A stretch of DNA of 21,010 nt from a virus, in IMG/VR virus record IMGVR_UViG_3300032893_003196, positions 1 through 21,010 of that record. One strand, 5' to 3'. Below, piece after piece: positions 285 to 21,010 of this stretch. The translations under genes were made by a program, and so were the position numbers. The notes under the pieces were generated by a model. The model saw only the letters and a program-made list of their open reading frames with translations. It did no database searches and was not told the origin of the DNA. Positions within the stretch are counted from its first letter, which is position 1; every line of letters starts with the position of its first letter.

Positions 285-992
285 TCAATAGGTCGGGCGA
301 TAGGGCACGAAGGTGAAGGTGGTGTAGGCGTCGAACTGCTGGTTGCCGCTAGTGTTGCACCCCAGCGTGTAGCTGCCGGCGCCCACCGCGCCGGCCCAGG
401 AGCAGGTCGAGCTGGTCGGAGTCGACGCATTGTCCACCATGGTCCCGTTCAGATAGATGCTGAGGGGCTGGGAGACCGAGAAGGCGGCGGCATTATTCCG
501 GCCGCAGAAGACGGTCAGCAGGCCGCCGATCGCGGTGGTGAAGCCGATGTAGGGGGTCAAGGTGCCCCCGCCCACGCCGGTATACTGGTGGAGCGTCGAG
601 GCCTGGGGCTGCTCCATGCCGTCGATCAGGCCACGCGCATAGGCCTGGACGTTCACATCGTTGCCCGAGGCCCAGGCGACCGCGTTGTTATAGGCGTTGG
701 TGTAGGCGGTATTGGCCCGGGTTTGGGCGTCGATCGCCGCAGCGGCTTGGGCGGCGGCGGCCTTGGCCAGGGCCACGGCCGTGACGGCTTGCGCCAGCTG
801 TGTGAAGTCGCCGGCGTTGAGGGCGAGCCCCTGCGCCTCGATGAAGCTGCAAAGCTCTTCCTGGATGTTGTTGAACCAAAGGGCGCTGAGCTTGGTGGCC
901 AGAATGCCCGAGGTCGGATTGCCCGCCAGGAAGCCGTTCTTGCCGGGCCCGAAAAGGTTCAGGGCGACGTTGCTGGTGTCGATGCGTTCCAT
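285..992 (-). CDS. Short tail fibre protein
   Basis: 235 residues from the ATG at 990-992, with AGGA six bases upstream (AGGACCCCCGATG). The frame is open further upstream but overlaps gp48. Residues 9-70 (ALNLFGPGKNGFLAGNPTSG, LSALWFNNIQEELCSFIEAQ and LNAGDFTQLAQAV) are the conserved attachment domain of many phage tail fibres. Residues 70-125 are Ala-rich and helical, like a trimeric coiled-coil stalk. Residues about 130-235 are a beta-rich tip (YIGFTTAIGGLLTVF, LSIYLNGTMVD, GSYTLGCN and TTFTFVPYRPTY). It is much shorter than Mu gpS and lacks a chaperone-type partner of the Mu gpU kind, so host range may rest partly on the second spike locus at 16697-20750. Confidence 0.8.
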   Translation of the reverse strand: MERIDTSNVALNLFGPGKNGFLAGNPTSGILATKLSALWFNNIQEELCSFIEAQGLALNAGDFTQLAQAVTAVALAKAAAAQAAAAIDAQTRANTAYTNAYNNAVAWASGNDVNVQAYARGLIDGMEQPQASTLHQYTGVGGGTLTPYIGFTTAIGGLLTVFCGRNNAAAFSVSQPLSIYLNGTMVDNASTPTSSTCSWAGAVGAGSYTLGCNTSGNQQFDAYTTFTFVPYRPTY

Positions 993-14793: not shown

Positions 14794-14815
14794 CACCCTG
14801 AACTAATTCAGGGTG
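14794..14815 (-). terminator. Terminator-like hairpin between F and protease
   Basis: A perfect 9-base inverted repeat (CACCCTGAA / TTCAGGGTG) with a 4-base loop lies in the gap after the F gene. In the direction of transcription it is followed directly by TTTT and then GAGG. The stem is stable, but the T-run is only four bases, so it may be a weak terminator, a pause or attenuator, or a processing site that alters F-to-protease expression. Confidence 0.5.
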
Positions 14816-14878
14816 AAGCCGGCGAAGGGAGGCGTGAGCCCGGAAACTATCGGCTGAAAAGAAGGTTCTGAGAAGCCT

Positions 14879-16123
14879 CTAAGAGGCCGACCAGGCCAGG
14901 TCGCCTTTGCGCATCTTGGCCAGGTCCACGCCGCCGGCGAAGGACGTGGTCGCCCACCACCCGCCGTTGGCCCAGTCGACCACCACATCGATGGGCCGGC
15001 CGTCGACCTCGAAGTGGGCGATGTAGCGCCGGGTCAGCAGCGACGCGCCCTCGGGCCCGCTGCGCCAGGCGCGCCAGATCTCGGCCGGTTCGCGCAGCGC
15101 CTGGCCGACCAGGGGCAGCGCGCGCAGCAGACCCCTGTCGAGCGTCACGGGCCGGCCGACCGAGTTGCGGAATAGCCCGGGCCCGACGACCAGGCCGTCG
15201 CCGGTCTTGTCGGCGAAGATCCGCGCCTGGTGGGGGCTGGCCCCGAAGCCGCCCAAGAACGCCGCCTCAGCCTCGGCCGGCGTGGTGTCGGCCGGCAGGA
15301 GATGCTCGGCCGGCGTGACCACGCGGCGCGGGTGCGCCGACGCGCCGTCCGCGTCCTCGCCGGCGGCGCCGTCGTCGGGCGGCCCCATGGGCGAAGGGGT
15401 CTGCTGCTCCAGATAGGCCTTGCCCACGTTGTAGCCCCAGCCCGGGCCGATGCCGCCTTCCACCCGCACCACCTCGCCCGTGCGCGGGTTGGTGTAGCCC
15501 TTCATGGGGAAGGCGACCGGCTTGTCGGTGACGCCGCCCTCGTCCTTGGCGTCGCGCTCGGACATTTGGATCGTGGTGCAGCGGCAGCCCCAGTCGCACG
15601 GCGGATAGTGGGTGTCCCACCAGTCGTCGTCGGCCGGCAGGATCGTACCGTCCCAGGCGGCGTGCTCGGGCCGCACCCGATCGTCCTCGACCGTCTGGTA
15701 CTTGAGGTAAGGCAGGGTGTCCTTGACGTCCTGGATGCGCTCCCACCGGCCGGCGGCGTAGGCGGTGCGCATGTTCACGTCGAAGATCGTCCGCAGCCGG
15801 CGCGGCGAGCCCAGCTGCACCTCGCGCGTCTCGCCGGTGAGCGGGTCCGTCATGGCCTGCTTGCCCCACCAGCCCTGGGCCTCCAGCTTCGGCCGCAGCG
15901 CCGCCTTGAAGGCCTCAAACGTGGTCCCGTCCGCCAGCGCCTGGTCGACCGCGTCGCGGATGTCCTGGAGGATGCTCGAGCGCATGGCCTTGGCCACGGT
16001 GAAAGCCTTGGCGTGCTCCTCCTGCCAAACGTCCTGCCAGGCGAACGAGGCCTTCAGCCCCTTCTTGCGGAAGTAGGCGATGGCCTCGGCCGGCGGCAGC
16101 GGCTTCAGCTCGATCTGGGCCAT
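14879..16123 (-). CDS. Minor head protein, Mu F (gp30) type, with C-terminal PBECR-like nuclease domain
   Basis: 414 residues. Residues 1-240 match the phage Mu F head-morphogenesis family. After an N-terminal helical part come FDVNMRTAYAAGRWERIQD (114-132) and the conserved block VEDDRVRPEHAAWDGT (145-160). The block continues into DTHYPPCDWGCRCTTIQ, with Cys176, Cys180 and Cys182. F-type proteins sit at the portal vertex or inside the head and are needed for head assembly. Residues about 245-295 are an acidic, Ala/Pro-rich linker. Residues about 296-400 form a separate compact domain with LVVGPGLFRN, TLDRGLLRALPLVGQALREP, a DP-EIW-like EPAEIW, RRYIAHFEVDG and WWATTSF. This resembles the PBECR family (barnase/EndoU/colicin E5-D/RelE-like fold) reported fused to phage head proteins. 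If active it would be an RNase delivered with, or packaged in, the virion. The start follows the membrane gene by four bases; a gap of 121 bases follows the TAG stop. Confidence 0.88.
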   Translation of the reverse strand: MAQIELKPLPPAEAIAYFRKKGLKASFAWQDVWQEEHAKAFTVAKAMRSSILQDIRDAVDQALADGTTFEAFKAALRPKLEAQGWWGKQAMTDPLTGETREVQLGSPRRLRTIFDVNMRTAYAAGRWERIQDVKDTLPYLKYQTVEDDRVRPEHAAWDGTILPADDDWWDTHYPPCDWGCRCTTIQMSERDAKDEGGVTDKPVAFPMKGYTNPRTGEVVRVEGGIGPGWGYNVGKAYLEQQTPSPMGPPDDGAAGEDADGASAHPRRVVTPAEHLLPADTTPAEAEAAFLGGFGASPHQARIFADKTGDGLVVGPGLFRNSVGRPVTLDRGLLRALPLVGQALREPAEIWRAWRSGPEGASLLTRRYIAHFEVDGRPIDVVVDWANGGWWATTSFAGGVDLAKMRKGDLAWSAS

Positions 16124-16127
16124 GGGC

Positions 16128-16700
16128 CTATTGCGACAGGATCAGGGCGACGAAGAAGCCGAACAGGGCGCCGCGCGTGAACTCCACCACTGCGTTCAGT
16201 CCTGGCCACGTGGCCTCGCCCTCGTGAAGCAGCACGCCCAACAGCGTGGCCTGCAGGGCGAAGATCGCCACCAGCAGCGAAGCCATCAGCACGCCGTGCC
16301 CGGTGGCCAGCGACGCCAGGATCACTCCGGCCGCCAGCAGATGCCGCAGGAACAGGCCCAACGCCTGGGGCGCGCTCGCCGGGTCCATGTCGCCGCCGAA
16401 GGCTGTCCAGCCGTCCCAGCGCCAGACGGTCCACGCCAGGCCGAACCACGCCCAGCTGGGATGAACGGCCGCGAGGACCGCGCACAACAGCAGCCCGGCC
16501 CAGAAGGTCGATCGGGCGTTGGCCACGTCGATCAACAGCGTGCCGATCAGCGAGACATGCGCGGCGAACTGGCGCGACACCCAGGCCTGCACCGCGGCGA
16601 TGTACGAGCCGCCGGCCAACCGATCGGCGACGCCGAACAGCAGCGCCAGGCCGAGGGCCAGGAGCGGCGCAAGGTGCGGCGTGGGGAGGTATCCCGTCAT
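16128..16700 (-). CDS. Multi-pass membrane protein of unknown function
   Basis: 190 residues from the ATG at 16698-16700, which overlaps the spike stop as ATGA. A longer open frame upstream is Arg-rich and lies inside the spike gene, so it is not used. Hydrophobic segments are visible at about residues 10-27, 66-79, 80-94, 114-133, 136-158 and 176-189, so five to six transmembrane helices are likely. A polar stretch with WDGWTAFGGDMD lies near 95-106. The N-terminus is short and almost uncharged, and the protein ends VALILSQ. No family is recognised. A holin-like role is possible, but the protein is larger than most holins and no endolysin lies next to it. A lysogenic-conversion role, or an inner-membrane partner of the exported repeat protein, would also fit. 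The stop TAG (16128-16130) lies four bases before the F start. Confidence 0.7.
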   Translation of the reverse strand: MTGYLPTPHLAPLLALGLALLFGVADRLAGGSYIAAVQAWVSRQFAAHVSLIGTLLIDVANARSTFWAGLLLCAVLAAVHPSWAWFGLAWTVWRWDGWTAFGGDMDPASAPQALGLFLRHLLAAGVILASLATGHGVLMASLLVAIFALQATLLGVLLHEGEATWPGLNAVVEFTRGALFGFFVALILSQ

Positions 16701-18904
16701 AGGACATAGGCCTCGACGGAGTCGACGTAGCCGTAGCCGTTCAGGCCATAGGAGTGCAGCTGCACGCGCGCCTTCACGGCCCCCGGCGGGATGCGGCACA
16801 CGATGCCGAGCGGGGCGTAGGGCGTCGCCGCCGTGGTGCTGGTCGCGACCTGGCCGCCGGCCGGCGTCGCCGGGTTGGTGATTTGGGCGCCGTTGCCGTC
16901 ATAGAACAGGGTGTTGAACTGCAGGAACCCGGACGCCGCGTTGATCGGCGCGGCGAAGTAGGCCTTGCCGATGAAGATGCGGCCCGCGTCCTTCAGGCTG
17001 AGCGCGACGTCCTGGTAGACGTTGACGTTGCCCGAGCCCGCATTGTTCAGGAACAGCGCGTTGGTCCCGGCCTGCTGCTGCGTCCCTGTGGTGTCGATCC
17101 CGTGGGTGTGGACCGGGGCCGTGCCGGTGTTGAGGGCCGTCAGCAGGTTGGACGGGCTCACCGACGCCAGGTTCTTGATCTCGATCGCCGAGAACTCGAT
17201 CGTGCAGTCCACCGTGACGCCGCTGGGGACGTACCAGTGGAAGCCCGCCTGGATGCTCGCGCAAGTCGCCTGGGCGCAGGTGTAGCTCCCGGTATAGGTC
17301 TGGACTTGGGCGGCGGGGGTCAGAGCCGAGGCGTTGGTCGTGCTAAGCACGGTGCCTGTGGCGGCGGCGGCCGAGTTCAGTTCGCTGGTCTGCGGCGTGA
17401 TGGTCGCACCGCCGCCCGGCAGCGCGCCCGCCGCCAGGCGATAGTTGAAGGTGATCTGCTTCTGCGAGCCCTTGAGCGCGGCTTGGCGACCATAGGCGCC
17501 GCCATGGAAGATCAGCCCCATCGAGCCGACGACGCCGGTCGAGGTGCCGAAGATGCGGTACTGGATCGTGCCGGCGGCTTGGTTGAACCCGACAATCTGG
17601 GCCTGCAGGCCGTTCTGGTTGCTGACGCCGTAGATCTGCCAGTCGGTCGGGATCGTGCCCAGCGCGCTGCCGGTCCCCGCCACAGCTCCGGCCATGATCG
17701 TGTTGCGGCACTCGTTGAAGTAGACGTCCGAGTTCCAGAACGACAGGCCGGATTCGAAGCCCCCGTTCTGGACGCGGCTGAGCAGCTTGCACACCGAGGG
17801 CGGGCAGAAGGTGCCGCCCATGCCGGCCGAAATGCCGATGTCGATGTTGTCCCACACCAGGGCCGGGGCGATTCCGTCGGTCGCCTGAACGATCTCGGTG
17901 CCCGAGGCCCCCGACAGGTGGAACGACGAGTCGCGGATGCTGATCTCCGGGCCGCCGGTGGTCTTGATCAGGGCCGGGCGGTTCTGCGACCCCGCGCTGA
18001 TCTGCTCCGCGCCGTAGTGGGCCACGCCGTCGATGTAGAGTTTGGCCGGGGACGTGACGCGGCACATCTCCTCGGTCCAGCCGGCCGCGCCGTTCTCGAT
18101 GTGGCCATTGAGGAACACGGTGCCCGACGAGATATCCATCAGGCAGTCGGCGTAGTCGAGCGACAGCCCCTCGCACTGCCATTCGCCAGTAGCCACCCCG
18201 CCGACCGGAGCCGGCGTGTAGAACGCCACGCCCGTGCCGCCGCCCGCCAGGGCGTTAGAGGAAGCGCCGCCGATGGTCCCTGTGACGCGGACGTTCTCCC
18301 CGGCGGTAGAGCCGGACAGGCCGCCGTTGAAGGTGTAACGCCAGTTGAAGCCCAGGTTGACCCTGAGCCAGTTCAGATAGAAGTCCTGGCCGAAGGTCAG
18401 GCAGTCGCGGAACCCGTGGATGTCCAGGTCCACGACCATGCCGTACATGTTGGTCAGCAGGACCCCGTCGGTGTTGACCCCGGTGTTCCAGACGGGCGTC
18501 GCATAGGCCGGATAGCGGCCCGCGCCGACCTGGCGCACCCTGAAGTCGCGCCAGGTGGCGTTCGGCACCAGGTTGGAGTTCGCGCCCACCGACGAACCAG
18601 GCACGACCAGGCCGCCGTCGATCGTGATCGCCGGCCCGCTCACGTTCAGGCTCGTATCGACCATGATCGTGCCGCCCTGGCCGAAGTCGCAGCCCATGCC
18701 GGACGGCAGCGTGATCTGGCTCGCGATGATCGGCGCATCGTTTTGGCGCAGCGACGGGATGCGGCCGTTCAGCCAGCACCACTCGAAGTGCTTCACCAGG
18801 TTGGTGGCCTGGTCGCCCTGCGCGAGCACGCCCGAGCAGTTGCCGCCGTACTCGTGGAAATAGGCCTGGGCCGGCGCTGTGGGATAGACCGTGTTTTCGG
18901 GCAT
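16697..18904 (-). CDS. Beta-helix spike-like protein (pectate-lyase-like fold), probable receptor-binding or glycan-acting virion protein
   Basis: 735 residues from the ATG at 18902-18904, which shares its last base with the upstream TAA. The reading frame stays open far upstream, but that part overlaps the signal-peptide gene and is not used. Residues about 60-375 show short repeating beta rungs rich in Gly/Asn/Asp (LPSGMGCDFGQGGTIMVD, AITIDGGLVV, LYIDGVAHYG, ISIRDSSFHLSG), as expected for the right-handed beta-helix of tailspikes. Residues about 379-580 begin NGGFESGLSFWNS and end CTIEFSAIEI, like a carbohydrate-binding beta-sandwich. Residues about 620-735 form a second sandwich ending YVDSVEAYVL. 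It has 14 cysteines and no visible signal peptide. Likely role: binding or cleaving a host surface glycan. Catalytic residues cannot be assigned from the sequence. Its position between portal and F is unusual, since Mu-like fibres normally lie at the distal end. Confidence 0.65.
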   Translation of the reverse strand: MPENTVYPTAPAQAYFHEYGGNCSGVLAQGDQATNLVKHFEWCWLNGRIPSLRQNDAPIIASQITLPSGMGCDFGQGGTIMVDTSLNVSGPAITIDGGLVVPGSSVGANSNLVPNATWRDFRVRQVGAGRYPAYATPVWNTGVNTDGVLLTNMYGMVVDLDIHGFRDCLTFGQDFYLNWLRVNLGFNWRYTFNGGLSGSTAGENVRVTGTIGGASSNALAGGGTGVAFYTPAPVGGVATGEWQCEGLSLDYADCLMDISSGTVFLNGHIENGAAGWTEEMCRVTSPAKLYIDGVAHYGAEQISAGSQNRPALIKTTGGPEISIRDSSFHLSGASGTEIVQATDGIAPALVWDNIDIGISAGMGGTFCPPSVCKLLSRVQNGGFESGLSFWNSDVYFNECRNTIMAGAVAGTGSALGTIPTDWQIYGVSNQNGLQAQIVGFNQAAGTIQYRIFGTSTGVVGSMGLIFHGGAYGRQAALKGSQKQITFNYRLAAGALPGGGATITPQTSELNSAAAATGTVLSTTNASALTPAAQVQTYTGSYTCAQATCASIQAGFHWYVPSGVTVDCTIEFSAIEIKNLASVSPSNLLTALNTGTAPVHTHGIDTTGTQQQAGTNALFLNNAGSGNVNVYQDVALSLKDAGRIFIGKAYFAAPINAASGFLQFNTLFYDGNGAQITNPATPAGGQVATSTTAATPYAPLGIVCRIPPGAVKARVQLHSYGLNGYGYVDSVEAYVL

Positions 18905-20088
18905 TAGTTGAACACCTGGACAGTGAGGGTCGAGCCGCTGGTCCCCTTGACGTAGAGGCTGGTGTTGGGGATCACGCCGCCGGTGAAGTCGAACGAGCCG
19001 CCGAGGCCGTTGGCGAAGGGGATGCCGCCCGTGGTCGTGGCGCCCGCCAGGGAAGCGTTGAAACTGTAGTCGCCGCTGGCGTTGCTGTTGGAGGCGAAGC
19101 CAATCACCACCCGCTTGGCGGCGGCGGCGGTCCACACCAGCTGCCAGGTGCCGTTCATGGTGACGGTGGTCTCGGTCACGGACGCCTGGGGCGCGAGGGC
19201 GCTGACGGTGCCGGTGATCGCGACCGAGCCGCCCGTCTGCTGCATGGGGGTGTTGAGCGCCGTGATCAGGCTGGTGAGGCGCTGGTTGAGGCGCTGGATC
19301 AGGGCGTTGAGCGAGCACGACGAGGTGTCGGTGGCGCAGGCGGTGTCGCCCTTGGCCCCCAGCACCGACGCGGCGGCCGTCTCCTGGGCGATCTCGCTCG
19401 TCTGGTTCGCGGCCGTGGCCTGGCTGGCCAGCTGGGTCAGGATACTGGCCAGGGTGGTGTTGGCGGTGGCCTGGTTGGCGGCGGTGGAGACGCCGGTCAG
19501 CTCGGACTGGATCGCGGCCAGGGCCGTGTTCGAGGTGGCCTGGTTGGCCGACGACGCCAGGCCGGTGAACGCCGAGAGGATGCTGGCCAGGGTTGTGTTG
19601 GCCGTGGCCTGGTTGGCGGCCGTGGCCGCGCCGTTCAGCGCCCCGAGGTTGAAGGTCGGCGTCCCCGAAATGCCGACGGTCCAGGCGCCGGACTCGGTCG
19701 CGCCGAATTGGGTGTTGCCGATCGAGCCGCCGGCCTGGAACGGTGAGCCCAGGTTGGCGACCAGGCTGGACAGGTAGCCGTTGGCCGCCGTCTGCAGCGT
19801 CGAGGTCGCGGCCAGGGGCGGCAGGTTCAGCAGATGCATCCACACGCCATTGTCGGCGGGATCGATGGTGAGAGGCGTGGGCGCCCCGGCCTGCATCCCC
19901 TCGTCCACCGCGCAGGGGTGCAGGACGCCGGCGACGTTCTTAGCGCAGGTGGTCTGCACCGTGTTGGCCGCGTCGTGGACTGTCAGGCCGTCGGCCAGGG
20001 CCTGGGGCGCGCCCAGGGCGAACAGGCCGGCGGAAGCGAGGGCCGCAATGGCCGCGTGGCGAAGGGACAAGGGAAGGCTCCTGATCAT
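18904..20088 (-). CDS. Repeat-containing protein with Sec-type signal peptide, phage spike cassette
   Basis: 394 residues; no family recognised with certainty. Residues 1-32 look like a classical signal peptide: MIRSLPLSLRH positive region, Ala/Leu-rich hydrophobic core, and an A-L-A cleavage motif at 30-32 followed by DG. Residues 157-225 hold three consecutive 23-residue repeats starting AANQ/SANQ, with a partial fourth. They are Ala/Thr/Asn-rich and helical-looking, as expected of a trimeric coiled-coil stalk. Residues about 270-394 are beta-rich (for example TVTMNGTWQLVWTAAA and GSFDFTGGVIP) and end in VQVFN, like a compact fibre-tip domain. Four cysteines (48, 59 and a pair near 253-260) fit an exported protein. 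The start ATG overlaps the preceding stop (ATGA), and the TAA stop shares one base with the next ATG. Repeat-stalk proteins of this kind are seen near phage tail fibre genes. A cleavable signal peptide is odd for a virion protein assembled in the cytoplasm. Confidence 0.6.
   Translation of the reverse strand: MIRSLPLSLRHAAIAALASAGLFALGAPQALADGLTVHDAANTVQTTCAKNVAGVLHPCAVDEGMQAGAPTPLTIDPADNGVWMHLLNLPPLAATSTLQTAANGYLSSLVANLGSPFQAGGSIGNTQFGATESGAWTVGISGTPTFNLGALNGAATAANQATANTTLASILSAFTGLASSANQATSNTALAAIQSELTGVSTAANQATANTTLASILTQLASQATAANQTSEIAQETAAASVLGAKGDTACATDTSSCSLNALIQRLNQRLTSLITALNTPMQQTGGSVAITGTVSALAPQASVTETTVTMNGTWQLVWTAAAAKRVVIGFASNSNASGDYSFNASLAGATTTGGIPFANGLGGSFDFTGGVIPNTSLYVKGTSGSTLTVQVFN
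19414..19620 (-). repeat. Three tandem 69-base repeats encoding 23-residue units
   Basis: Codons 157-225 of the secreted repeat protein form three back-to-back units of 23 residues. They begin AANQATANTTLASIL, SANQATSNTALAAIQ and AANQATANTTLASIL. A fourth, degenerate start (AANQTSEIAQ) follows directly. The spacing is exactly 23 residues each time, and units one and three are nearly identical over their first 15 residues, so recent duplication or gene-conversion-like exchange is plausible. The period is compatible with a helical stalk. Confidence 0.85.
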
Positions 20089-20750
20089 CGGATGATTTCG
20101 ATCTCTGGGTTGCCGGGCTGGCTGAAGTCGGTGTTGCCGCCGGGTTTGTGGGCGGCGGCCAGGGCGTCGATCGCCTCCTGGACGGTGGTGACGCCGAGGC
20201 CGGCGGCGGCGTCGTCGTAGCCGACGGTCGAGGCCACGCCGGTGCCGGGCACGCCGCGCGCCCCGCGCTGGCTGATGATCAGCCGGGGCGACTGGGGGGT
20301 CTGGAAGATGACGAAGCGCGCTGCGCCGGCCACCGTGTCCGCCGGCGGGGGATCGCCCACCGCCATACCCGGGTCGTCGAGCACCCGGATCGAGAAGGTC
20401 GCCGGCTGCATCAGATAGTCCTTGGCGCCGGTGGTCAGCAGCTCGAACAGGACGTAGCGGACGTCCAGGCCGACCTTGCCGGGCGGGACAAGCGCGATCA
20501 GCTCGGCGCTCGCCAGGGTGAACTGGGAATAGTTGCCGGTGGAGTCGGCCATGTTCACGCCGACGGCCTCCAGCAGCACCGCGCCGCTGCGGTCGATCAG
20601 CCGCTGCACGAACACGCGCTCGTCCAGAACCTCGTCGGAATAGTCGCCGGCGTCGTCGGGCGCCTGCAGCTCCAGCTGCAGCACGGCGTTCTCGCCGGCG
20701 TAGACCAGGCAGCTGCCGTCGGCGGCGTAGGGGGTGCGGGTGAAGCTCAT
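20085..20750 (-). CDS. Fibre/baseplate-type structural protein with BppU-like N-domain and C-terminal trimerisation-like segment
   Basis: 221 residues. Residues about 10-130 look like an all-beta domain: alternating hydrophobic strands, an 'RSGAVLLEAVGV' strand, and a 'VRYVLFELLTTGAKDYLMQPATF' pattern. This resembles the N-terminal Ig-like domain of BppU-type baseplate proteins. After a Pro-rich linker (residues about 130-150) come a short collagen-like stretch (GARGVPGTG) and the segment DDAAAGLGVTTVQEAIDALA. The latter is a motif common near trimerisation regions of phage fibres. The extreme C-terminus is Pro/Gly/Asn-rich. The start ATG (20748-20750) overlaps the portal stop, and the stop (20085-20087) overlaps the next start as ATGA. 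The protein is probably an adaptor or stem for the spike proteins encoded just downstream. The assignment is by pattern only; family membership is uncertain, but a phage structural role is likely. Confidence 0.55.
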   Translation of the reverse strand: MSFTRTPYAADGSCLVYAGENAVLQLELQAPDDAGDYSDEVLDERVFVQRLIDRSGAVLLEAVGVNMADSTGNYSQFTLASAELIALVPPGKVGLDVRYVLFELLTTGAKDYLMQPATFSIRVLDDPGMAVGDPPPADTVAGAARFVIFQTPQSPRLIISQRGARGVPGTGVASTVGYDDAAAGLGVTTVQEAIDALAAAHKPGGNTDFSQPGNPEIEIIR

Positions 20751-21010
20751 TCTGCGCCCTCCAGCGTGACGCCAGCGACGCCGGCGATGCGCGCGGCGAA
20801 CCCGGCCTGGGCGAGCAGCTGGGCGACCTGGTCCACGCTCATGCCGTCGATCGCGCCGGCGAGCTTGTCGCGGAACTCCTCGAGGCTGGAGCAGCTGGCC
20901 AGCAGCTCCTCGACCGGCGCGACCAACGGCTTGGCGAGCGGCTTCCAGTCGTCGAGCGCGCCGTCGATCGAGCGGTCGATGGCGTCGGTCTTCGGGGGGG
21001 CGGTTTTGGG
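20747..21010 (-). CDS. Portal protein, Mu gp29/DUF935 type (C-terminal end, partial)
   Basis: This frame enters from the right edge of the window and ends at a TGA at 20747-20749, giving about 87 visible residues and no start. The visible part has a Pro/Lys-rich stretch, then helical sequence with LAKPLVAPVEELLASCSS, LEEFRDKLAGAIDGM and VAQLLAQAGFAARIAGVAG. This pattern (a 'PV..LL....SLEEF...L' helix followed by an Ala-rich 'LL.QA...A..AG' helix) is the usual C-terminus of the DUF935 portal family of Mu-like phages. That family forms the dodecameric portal ring at the head vertex through which DNA is packaged and ejected. The identification rests on the tail end only and on the F-type head gene further downstream. 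The stop overlaps the next start as ATGA. In Mu the next gene would be F, but here four other genes intervene. Confidence 0.72.
   Translation of the reverse strand, partial: PKTAPPKTDAIDRSIDGALDDWKPLAKPLVAPVEELLASCSSLEEFRDKLAGAIDGMSVDQVAQLLAQAGFAARIAGVAGVTLEGAE

Follow-up and report, generated by a model that had tools for sequence, protein, structure and literature searches.

Fibre devices on the head or neck of particles and accessory regions in the head module of Mu-like phages are already known, so the locus reported here does not represent a new category. The RcGTA head spike consists of a base protein, Rcc01079, and a fibre protein, Rcc01080 (PMC7296036), and the fibres gp82-gp81-gp80 of cyanophage A-1(L) sit on the neck (PMC10966104). 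In DT57C, LtfC is the ring holding the lateral fibres (PMC10713586), and in Pseudomonas aeruginosa Mu-like phages the head-module accessory ORF h is a virion protein (PMC4378225). A literature search found no description of fibre cargo between the portal gene and F.

The stretch analysed here (the window) comprises 21,010 nt of IMGVR_UViG_3300032893_003196, with a GC content of 69%. Searches of Pfam and PHROG showed that portal, F, I protease, gpT, sheath, tape measure protein and baseplate genes follow in the order of a Mu-like head/tail module; transposition genes lie outside the window. These genes are on the minus strand. The portal gene (Mu gp29/DUF935-type; 20747..21010; phrog_113, E 1.9e-13), of which only the C-terminal end remains because the window edge cuts it, is followed by four genes designated A, B, C and D, and then by F, the I protease, a phrog_1731 structural protein, the major head protein gpT, sheath, tape measure, baseplate and short tail fibre. 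The last (285..992; phrog_2617, 1.1e-19) is of the ordinary short kind and lies at the tail end, as is usual. F (14879..16123) encodes a Mu F-like minor head protein (PF04233, 1.3e-23; phrog_220, 6.5e-92) with a C-terminal PBECR2 nuclease-like domain (PF18810, 8.7e-17), which makes it a fusion of Mu F with a toxin-like domain.

A (20085..20750) encodes 221 aa with an N-terminal Ig-like domain (20346-20750) and is a presumed virion-docking adaptor; B (18904..20088) encodes 394 aa with a predicted Sec signal peptide, a Cys pair and AANQATANTTLASI-type repeats; C (16697..18904) encodes a spike-like protein of 735 aa that lacks a signal peptide; and D (16128..16700) encodes a predicted membrane protein of 190 aa. 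None of the four matched a family in Pfam, PHROGs or NCBIfam. A to D overlap the portal gene and one another by 1-4 nt (ATGA at portal/A, A/B and C/D; TAATG at B/C), and a gap of 4 nt separates D from F. Portal, A, B, C, D and F are one translationally coupled operon. The GC3 of A to D (0.92-0.95) is the same as that of the flanking head genes, indicating that they are not decayed remnants. A simple sigma-70 scan of 14800-21010 returned 0 promoter-like and 0 terminator-like sites, in DNA of 69% GC. Taken together, the overlaps, the matching GC3 and the lack of promoter- or terminator-like sites indicate that A to D are intact and most likely coexpressed with the head genes. The description in the earlier note of four tightly packed genes between portal and F was confirmed, all four frames being real and overlapping and both flanks correctly named, and the intact coupled frames and core-like GC3 speak against its alternative of remnants. 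Its gene starts needed revision: C begins at 18904 and D at 16700, rather than further upstream in longer ORFs.

The portal-F gap was measured with profile HMMs in loci collected with F relatives (about 140 viral and 80 from bacterial genomes). The results showed a median gap of 37 nt and a 90th percentile of 786 nt over 218 intervals, only 18 of which exceeded 1.2 kb; the gap in the window is about 4.6 kb. Likewise, no gene is annotated between portal and F in eight annotated reference phages (Rhodovulum RhkS_P1, RcapMu, RR1-B, StM171, Lsp-JY19, MuM16-2, JBD25 and PeaS-P1), and the two are at most about 300 nt apart there. The separation is therefore as unusual as the earlier note had supposed. 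However, the interval comparison that it proposed also showed that the wide gap is not unique, since a recurrent cargo slot exists in the clade. When 110 F proteins are placed on a tree, the 19 big gaps require at least 11 changes, at least four of which are forced by well supported branches. In the clade of the window's F (40 rows from Caulobacterales, Sphingomonadales and uncultured sources), 36 slots are filled, 24 of them mid-sized and 12 big, and four are empty. The portal-F gap is an insertion hotspot in this clade, where filling is the rule. Even close relatives differ in slot content: the window's F shares 67-72% identity with its five nearest counterparts over their length, yet phmmer found no match to B, C or D in any fetched relative or its flanks; only A recurs.

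The proteins encoded in these slots are mostly of surface type, namely SGNH hydrolases, collagen-like and tail-fibre repeats, a cellulase and spikes; the families matched were Lipase_GDSL_2, Cellulase, Collagen, Laminin_G_3 (weakly) and tail-fibre phrogs. SGNH/GDSL hydrolases were found in L012 and L171 and, with weaker matches, in L152 and L123. L097 has a collagen-like fibre, L068 a GH5 cellulase with a signal peptide, L012 a weak LamG match, L013 and L093 tail-fibre repeats, and L091 and L110 spike-like proteins bearing signal peptides. The intermediate slots of sphingomonad prophages encode a single conserved protein (alignment A4) with a match to a tail-protein phrog; this protein also comes first in L013 and L171, whose slots are larger. 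This short protein (TFSRPTAA..PRFDH..GLLVE) is the sole slot gene in L106, L104, L155, L175 and other sphingomonad prophages, where it sits 500-800 nt behind the portal. Fibres are not the only cargo of the slot, since elsewhere it is occupied in a minority of cases by DNA methyltransferase-like or other genes; by eye, such methyltransferase-like genes occur in other Mu-like lineages at L015 8331-9083 and in the L218 slot. Two further observations concern the cargo. A moron-like gene for a membrane-anchored SGNH hydrolase lies antisense within the slot of L112 (4230-4853, minus strand), and an ORF resembling a tyrosine recombinase by eye (L123 3323-4177) lies beside an SGNH protein in the slot of L123.

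The N-terminal region of A, about 130 aa, recurs within the portal-F gap of nine phages, the window included (HMM, alignment A3). It is a free gene in the window, L091, L110 and L068 (third in the slot in L068), and it forms the N-terminus of long fibre ORFs (about 930-1600 aa) directly behind the portal in L192, L093, L243, L247 and L248. These fusions continue into repeat stalks; the L093 protein carries tail-fibre repeats and that of L248 a C-terminal Pfam GDSL domain, and by eye those of L247 and L243 end like L248, with no Pfam match there. That the domain is found fused to fibres in cis as well as encoded next to them in trans argues more strongly than anything else for A belonging to a fibre. 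Among host genomes A3 is rare (1/385 class genomes and 3/249 family genomes). All six of its members matched 0 Pfam families at E up to 10, and no meaningful relative was found among PDB sequences; A itself gave no tblastn match in 50,697 phage records and no hit in a single-sequence scan of viral contigs.

The AlphaFold model of A is an Ig-like sandwich of middling confidence (pLDDT 71.5, pTM 0.64). A Foldseek search of BFVD with this model gave E values down to 3.6e-5, including 4.2e-4 to a phiM12 BppU N-terminal protein and 8e-4 to an LtfC/p132/Gp6 protein. VIA-align gave Z 7.7 to T5 p132, 7.6 to the DT57C collar, 7.8 to the mycobacteriophage Douge baseplate and 7.0-7.2 to two neck proteins; common arrangements also reach 7-8, and values below 8 are common. 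Sialate O-acetylesterase Ig domains headed the VIA-align PDB list, from which BppU itself was absent. The predicted fold of A thus weakly resembles phage fibre-docking domains (BppU-N, LtfC/p132), a likeness that is suggestive rather than conclusive. The earlier label 'BppU-like coiled-coil' needs correction: A consists of an Ig-like domain with a short tail and not of a coiled coil.

The signal-peptide rule placed a Sec cleavage site in B after ...PQALA, and the protein has a conserved Cys pair, a 69-nt repeat unit in 3.5 copies (19402-19642) and a C-terminal region that looks beta-rich. B gave no tblastn match in the 50,697 phage records, and hhalign showed no signal when single B or C sequences were compared with slot proteins. 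A full-length homologue was found in L250 (34% over residues 9-229); it has its own signal peptide and shares with B the Cys-containing stretch behind it, TTC..NVA.V.HPC.V.EG. Relatives in L251, L253 and L254 share the repeat region and start with signal peptides, and one in L252 lacks the signal. The spike locus of L250 encodes, in order, a spike-like protein of 1025 aa, a protein that appears Ig-like from its sequence, the B homologue and an exported protein called SGNH-like by motif, with no Pfam match. The counterpart module comes after baseplate and collar-fibre genes in L251 and between two baseplate wedge genes in L254. The window thus shows in the head block a kind of module that other phages encode at tail-fibre or baseplate positions. 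In addition, runs of fibre-like proteins with Sec and Tat-like signals (RRDFL, RRRLL) were seen at L253 4954-12153 and L254 2316-5520, the latter lying between baseplate genes.

C looks like a spike protein: tblastn gave a weak match, at 24% across 280 aa (E 8e-5), to a Klebsiella jumbo-phage protein that is encoded in an array of large tail/spike proteins, and the label 'beta-helix' reflects this match and the impression given by the sequence. No Pfam match was found, including for pectate-lyase-type beta-helix tailspikes, and nothing meaningful among PDB sequences. No fold is claimed for C, since its single-sequence AlphaFold model (pLDDT 34.8) is unusable. D has five hydrophobic segments by hydropathy, in agreement with the membrane protein expected as the fourth gene; tblastn against the same phage records found no homologue, and scans of viral contigs with single C and D sequences found none.

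From the gene order, the coupling, the slot hotspot and its content turnover, the domain fusion and the conserved signal peptide of B, we infer a swappable adhesin or spike module in a lineage-specific portal-F slot, with A docking on the particle and B and D at the host envelope, a reading to which we give an even chance. The slot of alphaproteobacterial Mu-like phages would be filled, emptied and refilled with surface-interaction modules, and the A-B-C-D module would be translated within the head operon. A would be an adaptor for docking on the virion, with an Ig domain like that of BppU-N/LtfC, and, by analogy with the relatives in which this domain is the N-terminus of a fibre, would attach a spike to the particle, C being the likeliest candidate, either at the neck or head or at the tail. 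This spike would be a second receptor- or glycan-engaging device alongside the short tail fibre, and Sec-exported B and membrane protein D would act at the host envelope. A virion role is favoured by the five relatives in which the A domain is fused to fibres, and a role at the host envelope by the predicted Sec signals conserved on B and its homologues. The idea of a surface module away from the fibre end stands as far as an accessory module in the head block, additional to the short tail fibre (992-285), is concerned, but the arrangement is not unique; 'complete module' and 'head-borne' are interpretation, and sequence does not tell apart the mechanisms that had been proposed (head-borne fibres, a second receptor-binding system, lysogenic conversion).

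The export signals bear on the possibility, which we consider unlikely but worth weighing, that the genes form a host-surface module for lysogenic conversion or superinfection exclusion, in which exported B, C and membrane-located D alter or cover the envelope and A is incidental or assisting. The four loci with a free A contain 11 non-A slot genes, and Sec signals were predicted on nine of these, compared with one among 33 genes in the remaining listed slots (Fisher 7e-7). This count comes from a simple rule with five start codons picked by eye and genes that are not independent within a locus, and the enrichment should be taken as a pattern for testing and not as a rate. Over all slots the contrast with downstream genes is weak, whether only the first start is used (10/48 versus 7/144, Fisher p 0.002) or six starts are allowed (10/48 versus 12/144, p 0.03); its effect lies in the free-A loci, and half of it comes from L068. 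The 9/11 signals do not fit virion assembly in the cytoplasm; they speak for a host-surface module, as do the strong signal on B and its homologue, the Tat-like and Sec signals in the related clusters L253 and L254, and the predicted membrane protein D. A host-acting product, as expected of a moron, is indicated by the Sec signal on B and the hydrophobic segments of D, which are signals only. However, typical morons have their own promoter. The lack of a promoter-like site here, with full coupling to portal and F, suggests that expression is late and lytic, and the fusion of the A domain to fibres also argues against this possibility.

Alternatively, the four genes may be ordinary tail-fibre genes encoded in the head block, with products on the baseplate rather than the head or neck, which we regard as rather improbable. 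In L250, L251 and L254 the counterparts are encoded at the tail-fibre end or between baseplate genes, and baseplate or tail-tip docking domains predominate among the phage fold matches of A, both of which are consistent with such genes, but a short tail fibre is already present at the usual place, the portal-F location is kept in all nine A-domain phages, and the fold matches include neck proteins as well. The earlier note had itself raised the prospect of the same genes serving as ordinary tail genes throughout the lineage; counterparts do occur in the spike and tail-fibre loci of L250 and L251, but slot contents vary between close relatives.

Less probable still is a split adhesin. Here A would be built into the particle in the cytoplasm while its fibre or spike partners, exported by Sec or Tat, would fold and become oxidised elsewhere and, at lysis, either join particles or pretreat the host surface; the portal-F gap would then be one of several such insertion sites. 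Random accumulation or a decaying, functionless insertion is very improbable, because the weak match of C and the lack of homologues of D are outweighed by intact overlapping frames, GC3 equal to that of core genes and clade-wide recurrent filling with surface-type proteins.

On the preferred reading of a swappable module, fibres, spikes and glycan-modifying enzymes would be exchanged through a variable slot located in the best conserved region of Mu-like genomes. The findings suggest that the slot is an under-described place for swapping bacterial-surface tools in phages of soil and water alphaproteobacteria, whose fibres are overlooked when fibres are annotated only at the tail end. A3 may represent a previously unlisted Ig-like docking domain usable for finding such fibres, and the Sec signals on fibre-like partners of free-standing A raise the question of exported phage fibre proteins.

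Compared with the BppU-N and LtfC (T5 p132) domains, A has a weakly similar predicted Ig-like fold and shares the N-terminal position and, in five relatives, fusion to fibres; unlike them, it has no Pfam or sequence match and is encoded behind the portal, not at the tail tip. The RcGTA head spikes likewise belong to an alphaproteobacterial particle and are a second surface device, glycan-binding in RcGTA, made of separate base and fibre proteins; the RcGTA base is a jellyroll on capsid pentamers (PMC7296036), whereas A is predicted to be Ig-like and no relative of A3 was found among PDB sequences. As in the window, the A-1(L) neck fibre genes form an operon, encoding there anchor, repeat and distal carbohydrate-module proteins (PMC10966104); for A the neck is only a possible attachment site, and the window's B differs in carrying a predicted Sec signal. 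In the plasticity regions of P. aeruginosa Mu-like phages, variable accessory genes interrupt core genes as they do here, but those regions hold mostly ORFs of 34-100 codons (PMC4378225), whereas the fibre, spike and hydrolase genes of the portal-F gap span 2-6.7 kb.
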